From the IMG/VR virus record IMGVR_UViG_3300028025_001183, positions 1-36,702 of that record: a stretch of 36,702 nt of DNA. One strand, given 5' to 3'. The notes under the pieces are model-generated. The model did no database searches and was not told where the DNA came from. It saw only the letters and a program-made list of their open reading frames with translations. Within the stretch, counting starts at the first letter, position 1, and every line of letters starts with the position of its first letter. The DNA is from a virus. Of the stretch, positions 1,878 through 36,601 are shown piece by piece. The position numbers were made by a program, and so were the translations under genes.

Positions 1878-3191
1878 ATGCCAACAAATACTTATGTAGC
1901 ACTTCGCACGGAGACAGTTTCTGTAGCAACTAACTCCATAACACTTAATCTTTCTGGAATAACTGGTTATACCGACCTTGAATTAGTAGTTGCCAGTTCT
2001 AACGCAACCGCAGATTCTACGATTCTAGTCGCAGTAAATGGTGAAAATACAGGAACTAATTACTCCTTCACTTATTTTAACGGCAACGGTGCAAATCCAG
2101 TAACAGGCGCAGTAAATAATAATAATTTAGGTGTAATAGGTAATCATCACACAACCCGAAGTTGTGTTGTAGCAAGGTTTCTAAATTACACAAATACAAA
2201 TATGTATAAGCATTGGATTTTCAATGGTGGTGCAGCGGCGGGTAGCGGAGTATCTAACGGCGTAGTCTGCTGGCGCTCTACCGCCGCTATTACTTCAATT
2301 ACTTTAACCACTACTTCTGGTCGTAATTTTACAGTTGGCTCAACAGTTTCACTTTATGGAATCTCAACAGTCGGAGATACAACTCCAAAGGCAACTGGTG
2401 GAGAAGTTACTAGCGATGCAACTTATTGGTATCACACATTTAATATGTCGGGCAATTTTGTGCCTCTACAGTCTTTGACTGCTGACTTCCTTGTTATTGC
2501 AGGCGGTGGTGGTGGTAATGCCAACGGTGGCGGTGGCGCAGGTGGTTATCGCACCTCTGTCGGAACATCAGGCGGTGGTGCTGCTGCTCAATCTGCACTA
2601 TCTCTAACAGCACAACGCTACCAAGTCCTTGTCGGTGCTGGTGGTGCTGGTGGTTCTAGCGGTGCAAACGGTAGCGCTAGTTCTTTTTCATCAATTTCAA
2701 CCACGGGCGGCGGTAGAGGCGGTGGCTCAGACCAAAATGGTTTTAGCGGCGGCTCTGGCGGCGGCGGTGGTGGTAATACACAAGTAGGCGGAAGTTTTAG
2801 CGGTGGCGGTGGAACAACTAATGAAGGTTTTGGCGGCGGTAGTACCCCAGGAGCATCCAACTCTCCAGGTGGCGGTGGTGGTGGCGCGGGAGGCGCTGGT
2901 GGTAACGGTAATGGTTCTTCAGAACCTCGCGTTGGTGGAACTGGTGGCGTAGGGCTTACTTCAAGCATTTCAGGTACATCAGTTGGTCGCGCTGGTGGCG
3001 GCGCTGCTGGTAGCGGTGCTTTAGGTGGAACCGCAACACAAGGCGGTGGCGCAGGTGCTAGTGGTCAAAACGCTACAGATGCTACGGCTGGAACTGTTAA
3101 TACAGGCGCAGGCGGCGGCGGTGGTGGTGGCGCTCGCGCTTCTGCTGCTGGTGGCTCAGGTGTTGTTATTGTTAGATACACAAAGGCTTAG
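1878..3191 (+). CDS. Glycine-rich fibre/adhesin paralog 2
   Basis: 437 residues. Residues 1 to about 165 are the beta domain shared with the flanking paralogs (GYTDLELVVASS, STAAITSITL, GSTVSLYGI). A linker with TYWYHTFN follows, then from about residue 206 to 430 an extremely glycine-rich domain with runs of five to six glycines. It ends GGSGVVIVRY, the typical closing strand of phage glycine-rich domain proteins. In phages such domains form polyglycine-helix or loop-rich tip structures, as in the T4-like gp38 adhesins, and often determine host range. The ATG directly abuts the previous TAA. The long proline-rich reading frame on the opposite strand is a by-product of the glycine codons. Confidence 0.75.
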   Translation: MPTNTYVALRTETVSVATNSITLNLSGITGYTDLELVVASSNATADSTILVAVNGENTGTNYSFTYFNGNGANPVTGAVNNNNLGVIGNHHTTRSCVVARFLNYTNTNMYKHWIFNGGAAAGSGVSNGVVCWRSTAAITSITLTTTSGRNFTVGSTVSLYGISTVGDTTPKATGGEVTSDATYWYHTFNMSGNFVPLQSLTADFLVIAGGGGGNANGGGGAGGYRTSVGTSGGGAAAQSALSLTAQRYQVLVGAGGAGGSSGANGSASSFSSISTTGGGRGGGSDQNGFSGGSGGGGGGNTQVGGSFSGGGGTTNEGFGGGSTPGASNSPGGGGGGAGGAGGNGNGSSEPRVGGTGGVGLTSSISGTSVGRAGGGAAGSGALGGTATQGGGAGASGQNATDATAGTVNTGAGGGGGGGARASAAGGSGVVIVRYTKA

Positions 3192-3201
3192 GAGATAGAT
3201 A

Positions 3202-4584
3202 ATGCCAGCAAACTATGTTCTTTTAGAAACGATTGAACTTACGCAATCAGCATCGTCTGTAACCTTTGATAACTTGCCTACTTCGGGTTATACAGATTTG
3301 AAGATTGTTGCAAGCGCAAGAACAACAAATGGCGCAGGACCCCGCGACCAGATAGACATTAACTTTAATGGTGATACAGGAAATCAGACTTATGTTTTGC
3401 TTTTTGGTATCCCAGATGTATCTACTGGTTCGGAATCTGGTGTTGAAATACGCGGCGGTTATATGTCGGGTTCAACTGGAACTGCAAGCACTTTTGGAAA
3501 CGCAGAGATTTATATTCCGAACTATAGAGATGGAAATACTAAAGCCGTTCTTTCATACGGAGTAAACGCGACAAATGCTAATACTCAAGGCGGTATGCAA
3601 TTCTCAAATAGTCTTTGGAATAGCACAGCGGCAATCACATCAATCCAGTTGGTATCAAATACTGGCGCTAACTTTGTTGCAGGTTCAACTTTCTCTATTT
3701 ATGGAATCGCTACACTTAATATAACTCCAGTAACCGCTCCACTTGCAACAGGTGGAAACATCGTTGCTAATGATGGTACTTATTGGTATCACGCTTTCTT
3801 GAGTTCAGGAACATTTACTCCGCTAAAGACTTTAAGTTGTGATGTTCTAACTATTGCAGGCGGCGGTGCAGGTGGTAATGACGATGTTCGTGGCGCTGGC
3901 GGCGGTGCAGGTGGTATTTTTTACGCAACTTCTCAATCAGTTTTAACCGCCAAAACAGTTACTGTTGGTGCAGGAGGTACTGCTGGACTTGCCTCAACGC
4001 GTGCTAACACGGCTGGTTCTAACTCTACTTTTGAAGGATTAACCGCCGCAGTAGGTGGTGGTCGTGGTGGTGGAAATACTATAACTGGCGTAAAAACTGG
4101 TGGTAACGGCGGTTCAGGCGGTGGTGGTACTACTTCAAACAGTCAGCCTTCAACTAGCGCGGCTGGTGGTTCATCTACTCAAACTGGTACTGGTGGAACA
4201 GGCTACGGTAACGCTGGCGGCGCAGGTGGAAATAACGGTGCATCAGGCGGCGGTGGTGGTGGTGCAGGAGCGGCTGGAACAGGCAACATAAGTAGTTATG
4301 GTGTCGGTGGTACTGGCGGTGCTGGATTAAATACTTGGTCTACTTGGGCTACTGCTACAAATACTGGAGTTTCAGGTTACTACGCTGGCGGTGGTGGCGG
4401 TGGTGGCACAGGTGGAAATTATGGTAATGGTGGCGCAGGAGGCGGAGGTCGCGCTGGAGACAATAACGGAGTTTCAGTAGCGGGAACTGCTAACACAGGT
4501 GGTGGCGGTGGTGGTCGTGGCGGTGGTGACGAAGGTTCTGCTGGTGGCTCAGGAATTATTATAGTTCGTTATCCAATGGTATAA
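3202..4584 (+). CDS. Glycine-rich fibre/adhesin paralog 3
   Basis: 460 residues with the same architecture as the preceding gene. The N-terminal beta domain (SGYTDLKIVASAR, INFNGDTGN, STAAITSIQLVS, GSTFSIYGI) runs to about residue 170, followed by GTYWYHAF and a glycine-rich domain from about 218 to 450 that closes with GGSGIIIVRYP. It is clearly a tandem duplicate of the 1878-3191 gene, but the glycine-rich parts differ in length and spacing, as expected for a fast-evolving recognition surface. A TAGGAGATAGATA leader supplies the ribosome-binding site. Virion adhesin is the best call; the actual ligand is unknown. Confidence 0.75.
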   Translation: MPANYVLLETIELTQSASSVTFDNLPTSGYTDLKIVASARTTNGAGPRDQIDINFNGDTGNQTYVLLFGIPDVSTGSESGVEIRGGYMSGSTGTASTFGNAEIYIPNYRDGNTKAVLSYGVNATNANTQGGMQFSNSLWNSTAAITSIQLVSNTGANFVAGSTFSIYGIATLNITPVTAPLATGGNIVANDGTYWYHAFLSSGTFTPLKTLSCDVLTIAGGGAGGNDDVRGAGGGAGGIFYATSQSVLTAKTVTVGAGGTAGLASTRANTAGSNSTFEGLTAAVGGGRGGGNTITGVKTGGNGGSGGGGTTSNSQPSTSAAGGSSTQTGTGGTGYGNAGGAGGNNGASGGGGGGAGAAGTGNISSYGVGGTGGAGLNTWSTWATATNTGVSGYYAGGGGGGGTGGNYGNGGAGGGGRAGDNNGVSVAGTANTGGGGGGRGGGDEGSAGGSGIIIVRYPMV

Positions 4585-31212: not shown

Positions 31213-31350
31213 ATGATGAAATGTGTTGATTGTGAAACTACTGAAAATCTTGTCTATTCAGGCGTTGCTGCATTTGTATTAGGAGTTATTGACCTGGTAG
31301 AAAAGATATGTTACGACTGCGCTAATAAGCGCCGCCGCTCTCTATCTTAA
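31213..31350 (+). CDS. Small Cys-pair protein
   Basis: 45 residues from the first of two adjacent ATGs (31213 or 31216). It has C4-x2-C7 and C33-x2-C36 with a hydrophobic middle (YSGVAAFVLGVIDLV) and a basic end (NKRRRSLS). AGAAAGG serves as ribosome-binding site. The stop TAA interlocks with the convergent minus-strand gene over four bases (TTAA). Confidence 0.5.
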   Translation: MMKCVDCETTENLVYSGVAAFVLGVIDLVEKICYDCANKRRRSLS

Positions 31351-31568
31351 ATAGAGTCTAAAGCAACAACGATTGTGGCAGTTATCAGCAGAATCGAAAA
31401 CGATAGTGCGAAAGAAACGCCAGTCACGATTGCAGCAATTCCAAGAAACCATCGCACTTCAGGAAATTTTGCAGGTGTTTTAGGTGGCTTGGGAGCCTTA
31501 ATAACCTGATTGATAATCTTTGGGTGAATGATTTCGTCAAACTTTTGATTTACTTCATTGGTATCCAT
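31347..31568 (-). CDS. Small membrane protein
   Basis: 73 residues from the ATG following AGAGAGGGAATT; a longer in-frame start at 31592 would place its ATG upstream of that ribosome-binding site. The N-terminus is polar and helical with a lysine/proline stretch (IKAPKPPKTPAKFPEV), then hydrophobic segments at about 40-71 (WFLGIAAIVTGVSFALSFSI and on), either one long or two short spans. Function unknown; downstream of the proteasome-like gene but with its own promoter. Confidence 0.55.
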   Translation of the reverse strand: MDTNEVNQKFDEIIHPKIINQVIKAPKPPKTPAKFPEVRWFLGIAAIVTGVSFALSFSILLITATIVVALDSI

Positions 31569-31605: not shown

Positions 31606-32166
31606 CTATTTATTCTTAGATAATGCAACTTTCTTTGTCTGAGTCTTATAGGTAAATGGAGCCGATGTATAGGCATCATTTTCCGCGGCAATAGCCAAGG
31701 CAATTTCAATCTCAGCGCCAGCGGCTAATGCGCCGATTGCATAATTAGACCCAGAGCCAACGCCATAAATTCCTTTTGAATCCAGGGAGATGCTCATATC
31801 CTCAGCAAGTTCAAAAACCTCACCAGCAACAGCAATTAGAAACGCAAATTTAGTTTCTCCATCATCGGATTCATTCCATTTGTATTCTTGGTCTTTGAAA
31901 CAAGCCTTCAAAGATGGGACAACTTTAGAAATCATAAAGTGGTAGACATCTTTAAGGTCGGTTGCAGTTGGCTTAGGTGGAATCCAAATATGCTGAGCAA
32001 TATCGCATGGTGCAACTTCGCCAGAACCAGCAATAAGGAAATCTCCGCGCTCGCTAATCTTTACCATTTTTGGGTGATTAGCAGTTCGACCATTCGGAGA
32101 TGTTGTCTGTGAGTCAGCCCCAAAAACAACTTTGTCCTTATGCTGGATTGCCACGATTGTCGTCAT
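31606..32166 (-). CDS. Proteasome-beta/HslV-like Ntn hydrolase
   Basis: 186 residues from the ATG at 32166; longer in-frame starts read into the deacetylase gene and would bury the catalytic Thr. The start M-T-T-I-V-A-I exposes Thr1 after Met removal. Other hallmarks are GADSQTT (mature D17), HPKMVKI (K at about 32-33), FLIAGSGE (Gly47 region) and YGVGSGSNYAIGAL with the conserved GSGS. The catalytic Thr/Asp/Lys set is thus complete. No ATPase or alpha-type partner is seen, so an HslV- or Anbu-like self-assembling ring is possible. A TACGCT -10-like site six bases before the ATG and no ribosome-binding site suggest a leaderless start. Confidence 0.8.
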   Translation of the reverse strand: MTTIVAIQHKDKVVFGADSQTTSPNGRTANHPKMVKISERGDFLIAGSGEVAPCDIAQHIWIPPKPTATDLKDVYHFMISKVVPSLKACFKDQEYKWNESDDGETKFAFLIAVAGEVFELAEDMSISLDSKGIYGVGSGSNYAIGALAAGAEIEIALAIAAENDAYTSAPFTYKTQTKKVALSKNK

Positions 32167-32172
32167 AGAGCA

Positions 32173-32178
32173 AGCGTA
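32173..32178 (-). promoter_or_regulatory. Possible -10 of a leaderless transcript
   Basis: TACGCT on the minus strand ends six bases before the ATG at 32166. There is no ribosome-binding site in this gap. If used, transcription would begin at or near the ATG. Weak evidence; co-transcription from the promoter at 33283 is equally possible. Confidence 0.3.
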
Positions 32179-32182
32179 CCGC

Positions 32183-33097
32183 TTAGCCTCTAGGAGCCAC
32201 CAGCGCCAGGGATGCCTTGCCCCATAGGTTAGGAGTCTGGTCGTCTGGCAGATAGCCTCCAGCGCCTCCAAAAAGGATAGGCGTATCTGGATAAGCCATG
32301 CGAATACTTTTCATGGCGAGTTCATAACCACCCACGGTATATTTCAATTCAGAAAGTGGGTCATCGGCTAGTCCATCAGCACCGCAGGCAATGAAGATTA
32401 AATCTGGCTCAAACTCAAAGCAGACATCCAGAAAGGATTGAACCGCATCGGTTAAACCTTCATCATTAGTGCCAGCAACAAGAGGAAAGTTCAAAGCCTT
32501 TCGCTCCCAATCTGAGGTGAGTCCAGTTCCAGGGAAGATTCCCCATTGGTGGACAGAAAAGGTCAAGATATTTTTGTTCCCATGAGTCAGCGCTTCAGTA
32601 CCGTCTCCATGGTGAGCATCGCAATCGAATATCGCTACCTTCTTGCCGAGTTGCGTTGCCTTGGTTGCAGCAATCGCAAAATCACCGAACACGCAGAAAC
32701 CGCTTGAGTAATCGCGCATTGCATGGTGCTTAGCACCTGGTAGGTGAATTGCTAACTTGGTCTTTTCTTCCAGTAGCGCATCAAGAGCCGTAAGAGTTCC
32801 GCCTACGAATAACTTTGCAAGGTCACCGAGGTCATGGCGAGCGCCATCCCATTCATCCGATAAACCCTTGACGGTTACATCGTGGACATAAATCGGGTCG
32901 TGGCATAGCAATAGGTCATCGGTATGCGGTAACTCTGGGAGAAATTCGTCAATGTTGAGATGACGGTCTTGACCTTCCAGGATTACACGGTTACGCCCGA
33001 GCATGAACCTGCGCCCCTGCGTAGGGTGCGTAGGGTCGAATATCCAGTTCGCATATTCAGGCGAATGAACAATGATTGCATCTTCCATTTTAGGCAT
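32183..33097 (-). CDS. Histone-deacetylase/AcuC-like amidohydrolase
   Basis: 304 residues from the ATG with AAGGAGAGAG upstream; the in-frame start at 33157 is rejected for lack of a site. Arginase-deacetylase superfamily motifs are complete: DPTHPTQGRR near the N-terminus, PGAKHHAMRD with H124/H125, SSGFCVFGDFAIAA, FDCDAHHGDGTEAL with D158, D160 and H162, HQWGIFPGTG, CGADGLADDP with D246, and GGAGGY with Y282. By analogy with HDAC8, D160, H162 and D246 would bind zinc and Y282 assist catalysis. Relatives deacetylate lysines, polyamines or other acyl-amides; the substrate here is open. Very unusual in a phage. It overlaps the small upstream gene by 8 bases and lies 16 bases before the proteasome-like gene. 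Confidence 0.85.
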   Translation of the reverse strand: MPKMEDAIIVHSPEYANWIFDPTHPTQGRRFMLGRNRVILEGQDRHLNIDEFLPELPHTDDLLLCHDPIYVHDVTVKGLSDEWDGARHDLGDLAKLFVGGTLTALDALLEEKTKLAIHLPGAKHHAMRDYSSGFCVFGDFAIAATKATQLGKKVAIFDCDAHHGDGTEALTHGNKNILTFSVHQWGIFPGTGLTSDWERKALNFPLVAGTNDEGLTDAVQSFLDVCFEFEPDLIFIACGADGLADDPLSELKYTVGGYELAMKSIRMAYPDTPILFGGAGGYLPDDQTPNLWGKASLALVAPRG

Positions 33098-33257
33098 CTT
33101 CTCTCTCCTTAATTGGATAAAGATAGCCGCCCATTGCGACATCTGCACCAGTTTCAATAACTACGCCTTTATCAGAAAGTTGGACAACAGCATCAGGGAA
33201 AAACTGAATAATCCACTTTTGTAAATCTTCTTTTGTTTCCACTTCGTTGATGTCCAT
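33090..33257 (-). CDS. Small protein coupled to the deacetylase
   Basis: 55 residues: MDINEVETKEDLQKWIIQFF then AVVQLSDKGVVIETGADVAM and GGYLYPIKEREDA. Ribosome-binding site AGAGAGGAAAGTT. It overlaps the deacetylase start by 8 bases and follows the promoter at 33283-33288, so it is probably the first gene of the deacetylase operon. Mixed helix/strand; no known family. Confidence 0.6.
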   Translation of the reverse strand: MDINEVETKEDLQKWIIQFFPDAVVQLSDKGVVIETGADVAMGGYLYPIKEREDA

Positions 33258-33282: not shown

Positions 33283-33288
33283 AGTTTA
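33283..33288 (-). promoter_or_regulatory. Minus-strand -10 before the deacetylase operon
   Basis: TAAACT, whose TAA is also the stop of the upstream gene, followed by GGGGTTAATAATAG and the ribosome-binding site. The same TAAACTGGGGTT occurs before the 34484 gene. No strong -35. Confidence 0.5.
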
Positions 33289-33777
33289 CACTAGGAGGGC
33301 TTTATTTGTCCATTGCTTAGCCTTCTTTTGAGCAATCTCCTCGTCAAGTTCTGCAATCTGCACAGTCAAAGCATCACGATTCGATTGAAGGCGCTCAATG
33401 TCGTATCCGAGATATTGCGATTCTGTTGCAATCTGCTCGTTTACGAAATTTCTATCCTGGAGTACAACAGCGACAATTTCTGCAAGAGCCTTACGAAATG
33501 TCTCTCTCGCGCTATCGCTGGCATATTCTGAGAAGGTGCCATTCTTGGTAAGTGCGTAGTGTTCAATCTTTGCAACATCTACGGCGCAGTTATTACTTAC
33601 GGAATAGTGGACCCCGTTGATAATTACGCTTCCTGTGTAGCGGATGTGTGTAGGTGAAGCCATCGCTCCAATGGTTATGATTCCCTCAATGCGAGGGTCA
33701 GCGAAATCCACGGTCACGCAGTAGCGGTCTCCGTAGGATGACTTTTCTAAATCTCCTGTAAGCGATAGTTTTTTCAC
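33286..33777 (-). CDS. Hypothetical protein with C-terminal coiled coil
   Basis: 163 residues from a GTG start that overlaps the previous stop (GTGA), with AGAGAGAGGAAC upstream. The N-terminal 100 residues are beta-rich ([30 protein letters not shown]), and the C-terminal 50 form a heptad-like helix ([20 protein letters not shown]). Similar proteins occur in other actinophages without known function. Its stop overlaps the next promoter. Confidence 0.55.
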
Positions 33778-34591: not shown

Positions 34592-36601
34592 ATGCGGTAT
34601 TTACGCTTAGGCATAGCGTTCCTCATCGTCATCCTCCTAGCCCTTTTGCCCATGGATGATGCTGGGGCTGATAACGCATGGGAATCCGTGGTAAACGGCA
34701 ATGTCTCGGGCAGTTCGGTTCAATTCGACTACCGAGGGGGTAGCGCCTCCTACATCACCAATGTCTCTGATGGCTCAACCGTCACGGTCACGGTAGATAA
34801 CACAATCGCAAACTGCATCGGCTCTTGTACGCCGATACCCGATAACTGGACAGTCTCAATCAACGGTCAAAGTTCTAGTGGCAACACAATCGAAGTTGCA
34901 ACCGTTAGCGCCGTGGTCTCAGGTCAGGTAACAATTTCTGTTTCAGGCATTGATGCTGGATTTTGGGGTGGATGGTACGGACCAATCTTTACTGTTTCGG
35001 TTAGTTCTCCTACCCCAGTCCAATCTCCCGAACCTTCTCCCAGCGCAAGCCCTTCGACTTCTCCTTCGCCAGAGCCAACCGTAACTCCTGAACCTTCTCA
35101 ATCTCCTCAGCCAGTTGAGACTCCAACCGCTTCTTCGAGTCCTGAGCCAACATCCAGCCCAGAACCAACCCCAGAACCAACACCGTCACCAATGCCAGAA
35201 ACTCCATCGCAATCTCCTGCTCCTCAAAATAATGTAGTGAATGGTAGTACAAACGAGAATGATGAATTAACTCTTTCTGCCCCTATCGGAAAGATTTTTA
35301 CCTCAGTTGTATTTGCAAGTTATGGAACACCTACTGGTTATTCAATCGGGCAATGCCACGCACCGAGTTCGGTTGAAAAAGTTGCAGAAGTATTTTTAGG
35401 AAAAGCAATCGCAACGATTATGGCGATTAACGATTTATTCGGTGACCCTTGCGGCGGTACTTACAAATCTTTAGCGGTCAGCCTTGCTTATAGCGATGAC
35501 CCTCAAGCCCCAGAACCCAGCCCCAGCCCTTCGCCATCGCAACCTTCTGATACTCCGACAGCGGTGGTAACACCTCCAGGGATTCTTCCAGTTGAGCCAA
35601 GTCCATCGGCTTCTCCTCAACCCGAACCAACATCGGAACCATCGCCTTCACCGTCTCCAAGCCCGCAACCTCCCGCAGTTGAGCCTCCTCGACCAGAACC
35701 GACCCAGGAACCTCAGCCGACCACACCTGAACCCACACCTGAGCCATCGCCTACTCCATCCCCTGAAATTTCCCCGACTCCCGATGAAACTCCCACTCCC
35801 GAGCCTTCGCCAGAACCAAGTCCGAGCGAACCCGAACCAACTCCGACTCCAGAGCCTTCACCTGAGCCTTCGCCCGAGCCAAGTCCAGAGCCGTCAGTAG
35901 ACCCTGAACCAGAAACACCAGAGCCAACGCCGACACCGCCAGTAGAAGAACCGTCTCCTGAACCATTAGAAACCTCCGAAGTCATTGATGATGTTTTATC
36001 CGATGGAAAGATTACACCCGCCGATGCAGAGGCGGTAGTTGATTCATTGATGGAAGATGGAGAGGTAACCGAAGCCGAGGCTACTGAGTTGATTGAAACT
36101 CTTTCCGATGGCGGCGCTTTAACTGGAGCCGAAGAAGATTTAATTCTTGATGCGCTTGCAGCAGATGGCGAAGTTACCCAAGACGAGGTAAATAATCTTT
36201 CAGAAACTCTTTCTGGGGATGGAAAATTTACTGAGGCGGAAAAAGGACTTGTAGCCGAGGCGCTTATTACTCAATTCGATGGCGCTCCAGTAACAGCAGC
36301 AGCAATCGCTGAAGCAGGAATTGATTACGAGAATTTGCCTCCAGAGACACCAGTTGAAACTCGCGTTGATGAAAGTGGCGAGCCAATCGTCATCACAGCC
36401 GAGGTTGCCGATGCCCTTGAGTTGGTGGCAAACCCATCCGAATTAGTAGGAGCAATTTTTACTGACCCTGCTAAGGCGCTTATAGCGATAGGAAATATCG
36501 GGGCAGATATGTCCAATACAGAAAGACAAGAATCACAAACAGTAGTTGTTGCCTCGGTCATCGTGGGAGCAATCGCATCACTATCTATAAGGAGAATGTA
36601 A
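34592..36601 (+). CDS. Secreted/anchored Pro-rich lectin-domain protein
   Basis: 669 residues. Domains in order: signal peptide (about 1-26, LGIAFLIVILLALLP), beta domain (27-140), Pro/Ser/Glu linker (140-210), and a SUEL/galactose-rhamnose-lectin-like domain (213-301) with VVFASYGTPTG, CHAPSSV and FGDPCGGTYKSLAV. Then a long PEPSPSP linker (303-458), a segment of about five DG-x-[IVLF]-T repeats of 18-19 residues (463-559) that recall EF-hand loops or dockerin-type calcium sites, and a C-terminal hydrophobic span with RR (about 650-669). The protein probably goes through the host membrane and displays a sugar-binding domain. It may act in the cell wall or in exclusion, or be host-derived. 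Confidence 0.7.
   Translation: MRYLRLGIAFLIVILLALLPMDDAGADNAWESVVNGNVSGSSVQFDYRGGSASYITNVSDGSTVTVTVDNTIANCIGSCTPIPDNWTVSINGQSSSGNTIEVATVSAVVSGQVTISVSGIDAGFWGGWYGPIFTVSVSSPTPVQSPEPSPSASPSTSPSPEPTVTPEPSQSPQPVETPTASSSPEPTSSPEPTPEPTPSPMPETPSQSPAPQNNVVNGSTNENDELTLSAPIGKIFTSVVFASYGTPTGYSIGQCHAPSSVEKVAEVFLGKAIATIMAINDLFGDPCGGTYKSLAVSLAYSDDPQAPEPSPSPSPSQPSDTPTAVVTPPGILPVEPSPSASPQPEPTSEPSPSPSPSPQPPAVEPPRPEPTQEPQPTTPEPTPEPSPTPSPEISPTPDETPTPEPSPEPSPSEPEPTPTPEPSPEPSPEPSPEPSVDPEPETPEPTPTPPVEEPSPEPLETSEVIDDVLSDGKITPADAEAVVDSLMEDGEVTEAEATELIETLSDGGALTGAEEDLILDALAADGEVTQDEVNNLSETLSGDGKFTEAEKGLVAEALITQFDGAPVTAAAIAEAGIDYENLPPETPVETRVDESGEPIVITAEVADALELVANPSELVGAIFTDPAKALIAIGNIGADMSNTERQESQTVVVASVIVGAIASLSIRRM

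Follow-up and report, generated by a model that had tools for sequence, protein, structure and literature searches.

A predicted zinc-dependent deacylase and a proteasome-like threonine hydrolase are encoded side by side in phages that probably infect freshwater actinobacteria

Results and discussion

The two genes and the phages that carry them

A phage gene for a predicted zinc-dependent deacylase of the histone deacetylase superfamily (HDAC) is followed by a gene for a predicted proteasome-like N-terminal nucleophile hydrolase (Ntn), and the pair looks conserved and selected. We tentatively read it, with a confidence somewhat under an even chance, as a co-transcribed cassette in which a lysine deacylase and a stand-alone threonine peptidase, each working alone, would serve the takeover of the host.

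The window, by which we mean the whole 36.7-kb stretch of DNA that was analysed, is an IMG/VR record. The pair lies in a minus-strand gene run from 34502 to 31347 whose last members are the genes for a 55-aa protein, HDAC, Ntn and a small membrane protein. The three adjacent minus-strand genes that an earlier note on this DNA had reported are there, with open reading frames of 55, 304 and 186 aa. The features are as follows:

33286 to 33777, minus strand: 163-aa protein, upstream in the HDAC gene run and found in close relatives only
33090 to 33257, minus strand: 55-aa protein 5' of HDAC, its end overlapped by the HDAC start; loose association only
32183 to 33097, minus strand: HDAC, predicted zinc-dependent deacylase, class-I/AcuC-like, 304 aa; ATG at 33097, stop ends at 32183
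31606 to 32166, minus strand: Ntn, predicted N-terminal nucleophile hydrolase of the proteasome-beta/HslV/BPH family, 186 aa; ATG at 32166, stop ends at 31606
31347 to 31568, minus strand: small membrane protein, 73 aa, with one hydrophobic segment by sequence reading; same gene run as HDAC and Ntn

In the window the gap between the HDAC stop and the Ntn start is 16 bases. Since both proteins match Pfam or PHROG families, have invariant residues and show low dN/dS (0.06-0.16 against close relatives for HDAC and likewise for Ntn, which is purifying selection), they are not chance open reading frames. Profile searches gave no family match for the 55-aa protein and no convincing one for the 73-aa membrane protein. 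The family of the latter is near HDAC in 46 of 76 distinct HDAC loci, where its usual place is next after Ntn. Matches to consensus promoters and terminators in the region were in no clear excess over shuffled expectation. Elsewhere in the window, a plus-strand gene at 34592-36601 codes for a secreted-looking protein of 669 aa with Pro/Thr/Ser-rich low-complexity repeats, and contig L108 has a similar gene ahead of its Ntn region; two neighbouring plus-strand genes at 1878-4584 both match phrog_2295, an apparent tandem duplication.

The window terminase is 70-95% identical to that of 17 HDAC-carrying relative records, mostly near 60 kb, and 53-56% identical to the terminases of 60-kb Arthrobacter phages. 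The carriers of HDAC and Ntn are probably freshwater phages of actinobacteria of about 60 kb; such a host is probable because of the HDAC relatives, the terminase relatives and a G+C content near 46%. Some HDAC-carrying relatives (L415 9427-17469, which is record G016 29.4-37.5 kb, and L402-L406) have, on the stretch from a Mu-F-like gene to the capsid region, a row of genes for large proteins. These proteins share a repeated linker, KHxxHDQxxHGxWA, and look like virion cargo effectors; an ADP-ribosyltransferase exoenzyme domain was recognised in one of them (PF03496, 7e-18) and weak matches to GNAT in others. The linker was considered as an Ntn processing site and dropped because it is absent from two HDAC-less sister phages, from the Ntn-bearing phage E7 and from a 90-kb phage.

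HDAC is followed by Ntn at most of its loci

Two HDAC searches of IMG/VR gave 90 loci, the window included. In 83 of them Ntn is the first or second gene downstream of HDAC; three loci end before the Ntn place is visible, and four, which are four contigs of one 90-kb phage lineage, have no adjacent Ntn. The adjacency on which the earlier note had based a joint system therefore holds up on the HDAC side. When HDAC and Ntn are directly adjacent, the spacing is usually 9-45 bases, and in some relatives a gene for GP88 (PF17338; L043 4464-5261) or for SpeD, i.e. AdoMet_dc (PF02675; L049 6976-7356), lies between them. The slot after HDAC is held by six families, with Ntn in 55 of 73 cases and then GP88 or SpeD with Ntn behind, whereas the slot before HDAC, where the 55-aa gene lies in the window, is held by 17 different families, the commonest in 13 of 72 cases. 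The pairing is therefore not merely general synteny, and the 55-aa protein lies outside the conserved unit and was dropped as a third component.

The Ntn that follows HDAC is not always of the same kind. On an HDAC tree of 89 rows, made by a quick search, four Ntn types (A to D) are distributed with seven changes, one loss included, so several are replacements, and through these an Ntn has continued to occupy the slot. Type A shares about 33% identity with type B, and close HDAC pairs can have different types (e.g. type B in L029 and type A in L033). Type-B Ntn proteins at least 56% identical to the type-B query from L035 all adjoin HDAC where the flank is present. In the 90-kb lineage, a long contig has Ntn 20 kb from HDAC and on the opposite strand. 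Its 90-kb member L210 (record G056) has an 83%-identical HDAC and no detectable match to the window terminase; since this HDAC nests in the window clade, it points to a recent transfer of HDAC between phage groups. Much of the conservation of the pair comes from one phage group, so that it is inflated by shared synteny.

Ntn is common without HDAC

The earlier note held that either gene alone is rare in phages. This is true of HDAC, which was found in 8 of 50,697 phage records, and not of Ntn, of which there are at least 559 relatives in viral contigs. HDAC accompanies Ntn at 70 of 188 distinct Ntn loci and is missing from 102 that have at least 1.5 kb of upstream sequence, the other 16 being too short to judge; pairing is thus the minority state for Ntn (70 of the 172 loci with enough flank, against 102 of 172 without HDAC). 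In 15 HDAC-less Ntn records no HDAC match was found anywhere in the available record sequence, and five of these records are sister phages with a terminase identity of 60-66%. Common neighbours of HDAC-less Ntn genes are CHAP-type endolysin genes, as in L108, a metallophosphoesterase-like protein (by reading) and small membrane proteins. The cultured Planktophila phages E7 and F5 (OX376640, OX376641; PMC10202952) also carry Ntn. In E7 (OX376640.1; L239 7500-8036) a portal-like gene immediately precedes it and a gene for a 1764-aa protein, perhaps an internal virion protein, follows it; a gene in such a position might be expected to encode a head maturation protease. The isolated phages Magritte (of Microbacterium) and E3 (of Rhodococcus) have HDAC, and Ntn was not found in either genome. 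Because Ntn is common without HDAC and these two phages have HDAC without Ntn, an obligate two-part machine is unsupported; the evidence supports a one-sided dependence, that is, a co-inherited accessory cassette. What stands of the joint system proposed earlier is co-inheritance, as seen at the HDAC loci, and what falls is obligate coupling, given the state of Ntn loci, Magritte, E3 and the 90-kb lineage.

These distributions bear on two other explanations. The first, to which we give a real but lesser chance, is linkage without functional coupling, in which the pair sits in a variable accessory region where a widespread Ntn is present by descent. The abundance of Ntn in phages, its location elsewhere in sister phages, e.g. 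beside a CHAP endolysin gene, and the insertion of GP88 or SpeD genes into the pair agree with this, but very different Ntn types have been swapped in at one place while the flanking slots vary freely, and drift would not be expected to hold Ntn in that slot. The second is a coupled module in which deacylation by HDAC would license degradation by Ntn, or HDAC would salvage Nε-acyl-lysine from Ntn peptides. The strong adjacency in spite of repeated Ntn replacement and the retention of Ntn elsewhere in the genome of a 90-kb HDAC phage are in its favour, and so is a phage precedent that links acylation and proteolysis, namely the GNAT Rac, which triggers cleavage of RNAP alpha (PMC7552054). Against these stand HDAC without Ntn in Magritte and E3, the many Ntn genes without HDAC and the fact that no HDAC-Ntn fusion was seen, and we consider coupling unlikely.

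HDAC is a predicted lysine deacylase

HDAC matches Pfam PF00850 (Hist_deacetyl) with an E value of 6e-50 and 170.7 bits, the cut-off being 27.9. Residues H124, H125, D160, H162 and Y282 are invariant among 66 distinct relatives and D241 is invariant in 21, which confirms the earlier description of an enzyme with all zinc and catalytic residues. The arginase-deacetylase fold and the HH, D-x-H, D and catalytic Y residues that define the superfamily are all found. An AlphaFold2 model (pLDDT 87) aligned by VIA-align to HDAC/HDAH structures with Z about 34; for the subclass the structure search was uninformative because all rows were tied at Z 33-34. The invariant sites and purifying selection predict that HDAC is likely to be catalytically active.

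The subfamily has the signature HPTQGRRF / GAKHHA / DAHHGDG / FPGTG / GADG..DPL / GAGGY, which is common to chromosomal homologs of freshwater Actinomycetota at about 50% identity; judged by sequence, the closest cellular relatives of the phage HDAC are among these bacteria. Of 81 genomes of the probable host order, 8 encode PF00850 proteins, in two cases of the phage HDAC subfamily. With 140 bits for the HDAC2 domain versus about 85 for each HDAC6 domain, HDAC appears nearest to class I by profile scores, and the class-I-like sequence goes with the lack of an RPP motif; the GAKHH of HDAC also resembles GGLHH of the HDAC2 alignment. In the phage proteins and their host relatives the RPPXHH motif before the catalytic His pair is absent and PGAKHH is there instead, and at the foot pocket EGGY is absent and replaced by an invariant AGGY. 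The motif rules in PMC11532494 link the lack of RPPXHH and a small residue before GGY to lysine deacylases with an open foot pocket. Because HDAC has both characters, its motifs point to such a pocket, which lets some deacylases accept longer acyl groups than acetyl, and away from the bacterial polyamine deacetylases. The invariant lysine that immediately precedes the HH pair is an uncommon feature in our set of compared sequences; a preference for acidic acyl groups, for instance succinyl, would be a speculative consequence. D84, aligned by eye with the Asp of class I enzymes that binds the peptide backbone, varies between relatives, so that the substrates might also be small molecules.

Among known enzymes, HDAC shares with the class I/AcuC-like lysine deacylases (PF00850; clusters 2 and 5 of PMC11532494) the fold, the HH pair, the Asp-His-Asp zinc site, the catalytic Tyr, FPGTG, the small residue before GGY and the lack of RPP. 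It differs from them in that it is short (304 aa), has a near-invariant HPTQGRRF and a Lys directly before HH (GAKHH), and is encoded by phages, beside a protease and not in an acu operon; it is 20-29% identical to solved structures. The other actinobacteriophage HDAC homologs, E3 gp202 (putative histone deacetylase) and Magritte gene 204, are 32-37% identical to it, lack HPTQGRRF and are in genomes without Ntn.

It is quite unlikely that HDAC instead deacetylates acetylpolyamines, so that spermidine or putrescine would become available for DNA packaging and translation. SpeD was found in 6 of the 36 HDAC records tested, mostly inside or beside the cassette, the PLS of HDAC resembles the PIS motif found in bacterial acetylpolyamine amidohydrolases (APAHs), and the APAHs of giant viruses are proven enzymes while freshwater phages have SpeD-like ornithine/arginine decarboxylases (PMC9992855). 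However, the RPPGHH and EGGY of bacterial polyamine deacetylases are GAKHH and AGGY in HDAC, which therefore was not placed in the acetylpolyamine amidohydrolase cluster (cluster 4), and at 304 aa it is about 37 aa shorter than the Mycoplana ramosa APAH (about 341). The window has no SpeD gene, nor do most HDAC records, and SpeD was rejected as a general partner. The viral APAHs, though likewise virus-encoded enzymes of the HDAC superfamily, belong to giant eukaryotic viruses, are related to the Mycoplana APAH and have homologs only in Imitervirales (PMC9992855). Very doubtful, too, is the idea of a dedicated phage system of deacylase and threonine protease in which host or phage proteins would be marked out for degradation or for sparing by the removal of acyl marks, perhaps in opposition to the GNAT domains of head-region proteins of related phages.

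Ntn is a predicted single-subunit threonine hydrolase

Ntn matches PF00227 (Proteasome) with 25.7 bits, the curated cut-off being 22.4, and PHROG 1040, "peptidase HslV family", with an E value of 1.6e-26. Across 91 distinct sequences, among them types about 30% identical, there is no variation at T2 (mature Thr1), D18 (Asp17), K36 or S138-G139. The features that mark the PF00227 family (Thr1, Asp17, a Lys33 equivalent and the SG motif) are thus all found in Ntn, with the lysine at precursor residue 36. This residue, mature K35, is the functional counterpart of proteasomal Lys33; precursor position 33 is variable, with Q in 35 and K in 23 of the 91 sequences. Of the Thr1/Asp17/Lys33 set named earlier, the threonine and the aspartate were correct, and so was the region of the lysine but not the exact residue. 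Ntn has no propeptide, Thr1 coming straight after Met (MTT start). The AlphaFold2 model (pLDDT 85) matches BPH, HslV and 20S beta with Z 16-18; the best match is Thiobacillus BPH at Z 17.9, rows within Z 1 being tied. Structure prediction of each protein alone gave an HDAC fold and a proteasome-like fold. Ntn looks, from its conserved sites, like an active single-subunit threonine hydrolase.

With the group I proteasome-like proteins HslV, BPH, AAH and PPH (PMC8665760) and with PHROG 1040, Ntn shares the single-subunit beta fold and the Thr1/Asp17/Lys triad. Its model contains both helix pairs as in group I, BPH heads the tied matches among solved structures, and in lacking a propeptide it is like the group I proteins other than HslV (PMC8665760). 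Unlike HslV and the archaeal beta subunit, it is paired with a deacylase and scores far below the respective cut-offs, with 21.5 versus 157.75 bits for the HslV equivalog (TIGR03692) and 20 versus 224 bits for archaeal 20S beta (TIGR03634). It also differs in having no HslU/Clp partner in the phage: no such AAA+ gene (AAA_2, PF07724) was found among the phage genes of 23 records, and the control was positive in 14 of 14. An unfoldase of the host is a possible partner.

The suggestion of interference with the host Pup-proteasome, for which the proteasome fold of the Ntn model and the probable actinobacterial host would speak, did not survive as a main reading and is highly improbable, because in the probable host order (the order that holds the chromosomal HDAC relatives) 20S proteasome subunits occur in only 2 of 81 genomes, and the invariant active site of Ntn argues for an enzyme and not a decoy. 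Membership in a defence system was rejected as well, there being no PADLOC match to HDAC or Ntn.

Proposed role

Phages change host protein modification and proteolysis. In the reading that we favour, HDAC would deacylate lysine side chains in metabolic or transcription enzymes of the host, taking off small acyl groups, and the deacylated proteins would stay unacylated and active during infection. Ntn, an HslV/BPH-type enzyme that starts at Thr1, would degrade or process host or phage polypeptides without a phage-encoded unfoldase. The common cassette would let HDAC and Ntn be made at the same time and in matching amounts for takeover of the host proteome, with each acting independently. We infer co-transcription, catalytic activity, lysine-protein substrates, timing and the benefit of pairing from the comparisons above. 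The zinc site and the Thr site are both kept, and on the HDAC side neither the rare adjacency nor the loss of a site that would speak against a joint system was found. Independent action in a common cassette is weakened as the best explanation because the 90-kb lineage, Magritte and E3 keep HDAC without an adjacent Ntn, and in view of the GNAT matches in related phages HDAC may have a phage-specific acyl substrate.

Conclusions

Both superfamilies are known, and the pairing and the phage deacylase subfamily are undescribed as far as the open-licence PMC literature shows: we found in it no description of a phage zinc deacylase tied to a protease or of an HDAC-Ntn pair. A survey of the proteasome-like family in 2021 reported no functional gene context in phages (PMC8665760). 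If the two enzymes are active, the pair would be a widespread point of access to protein acylation while phages infect abundant freshwater bacteria, and it would be a lead on the role of proteasome-like proteins in phages.
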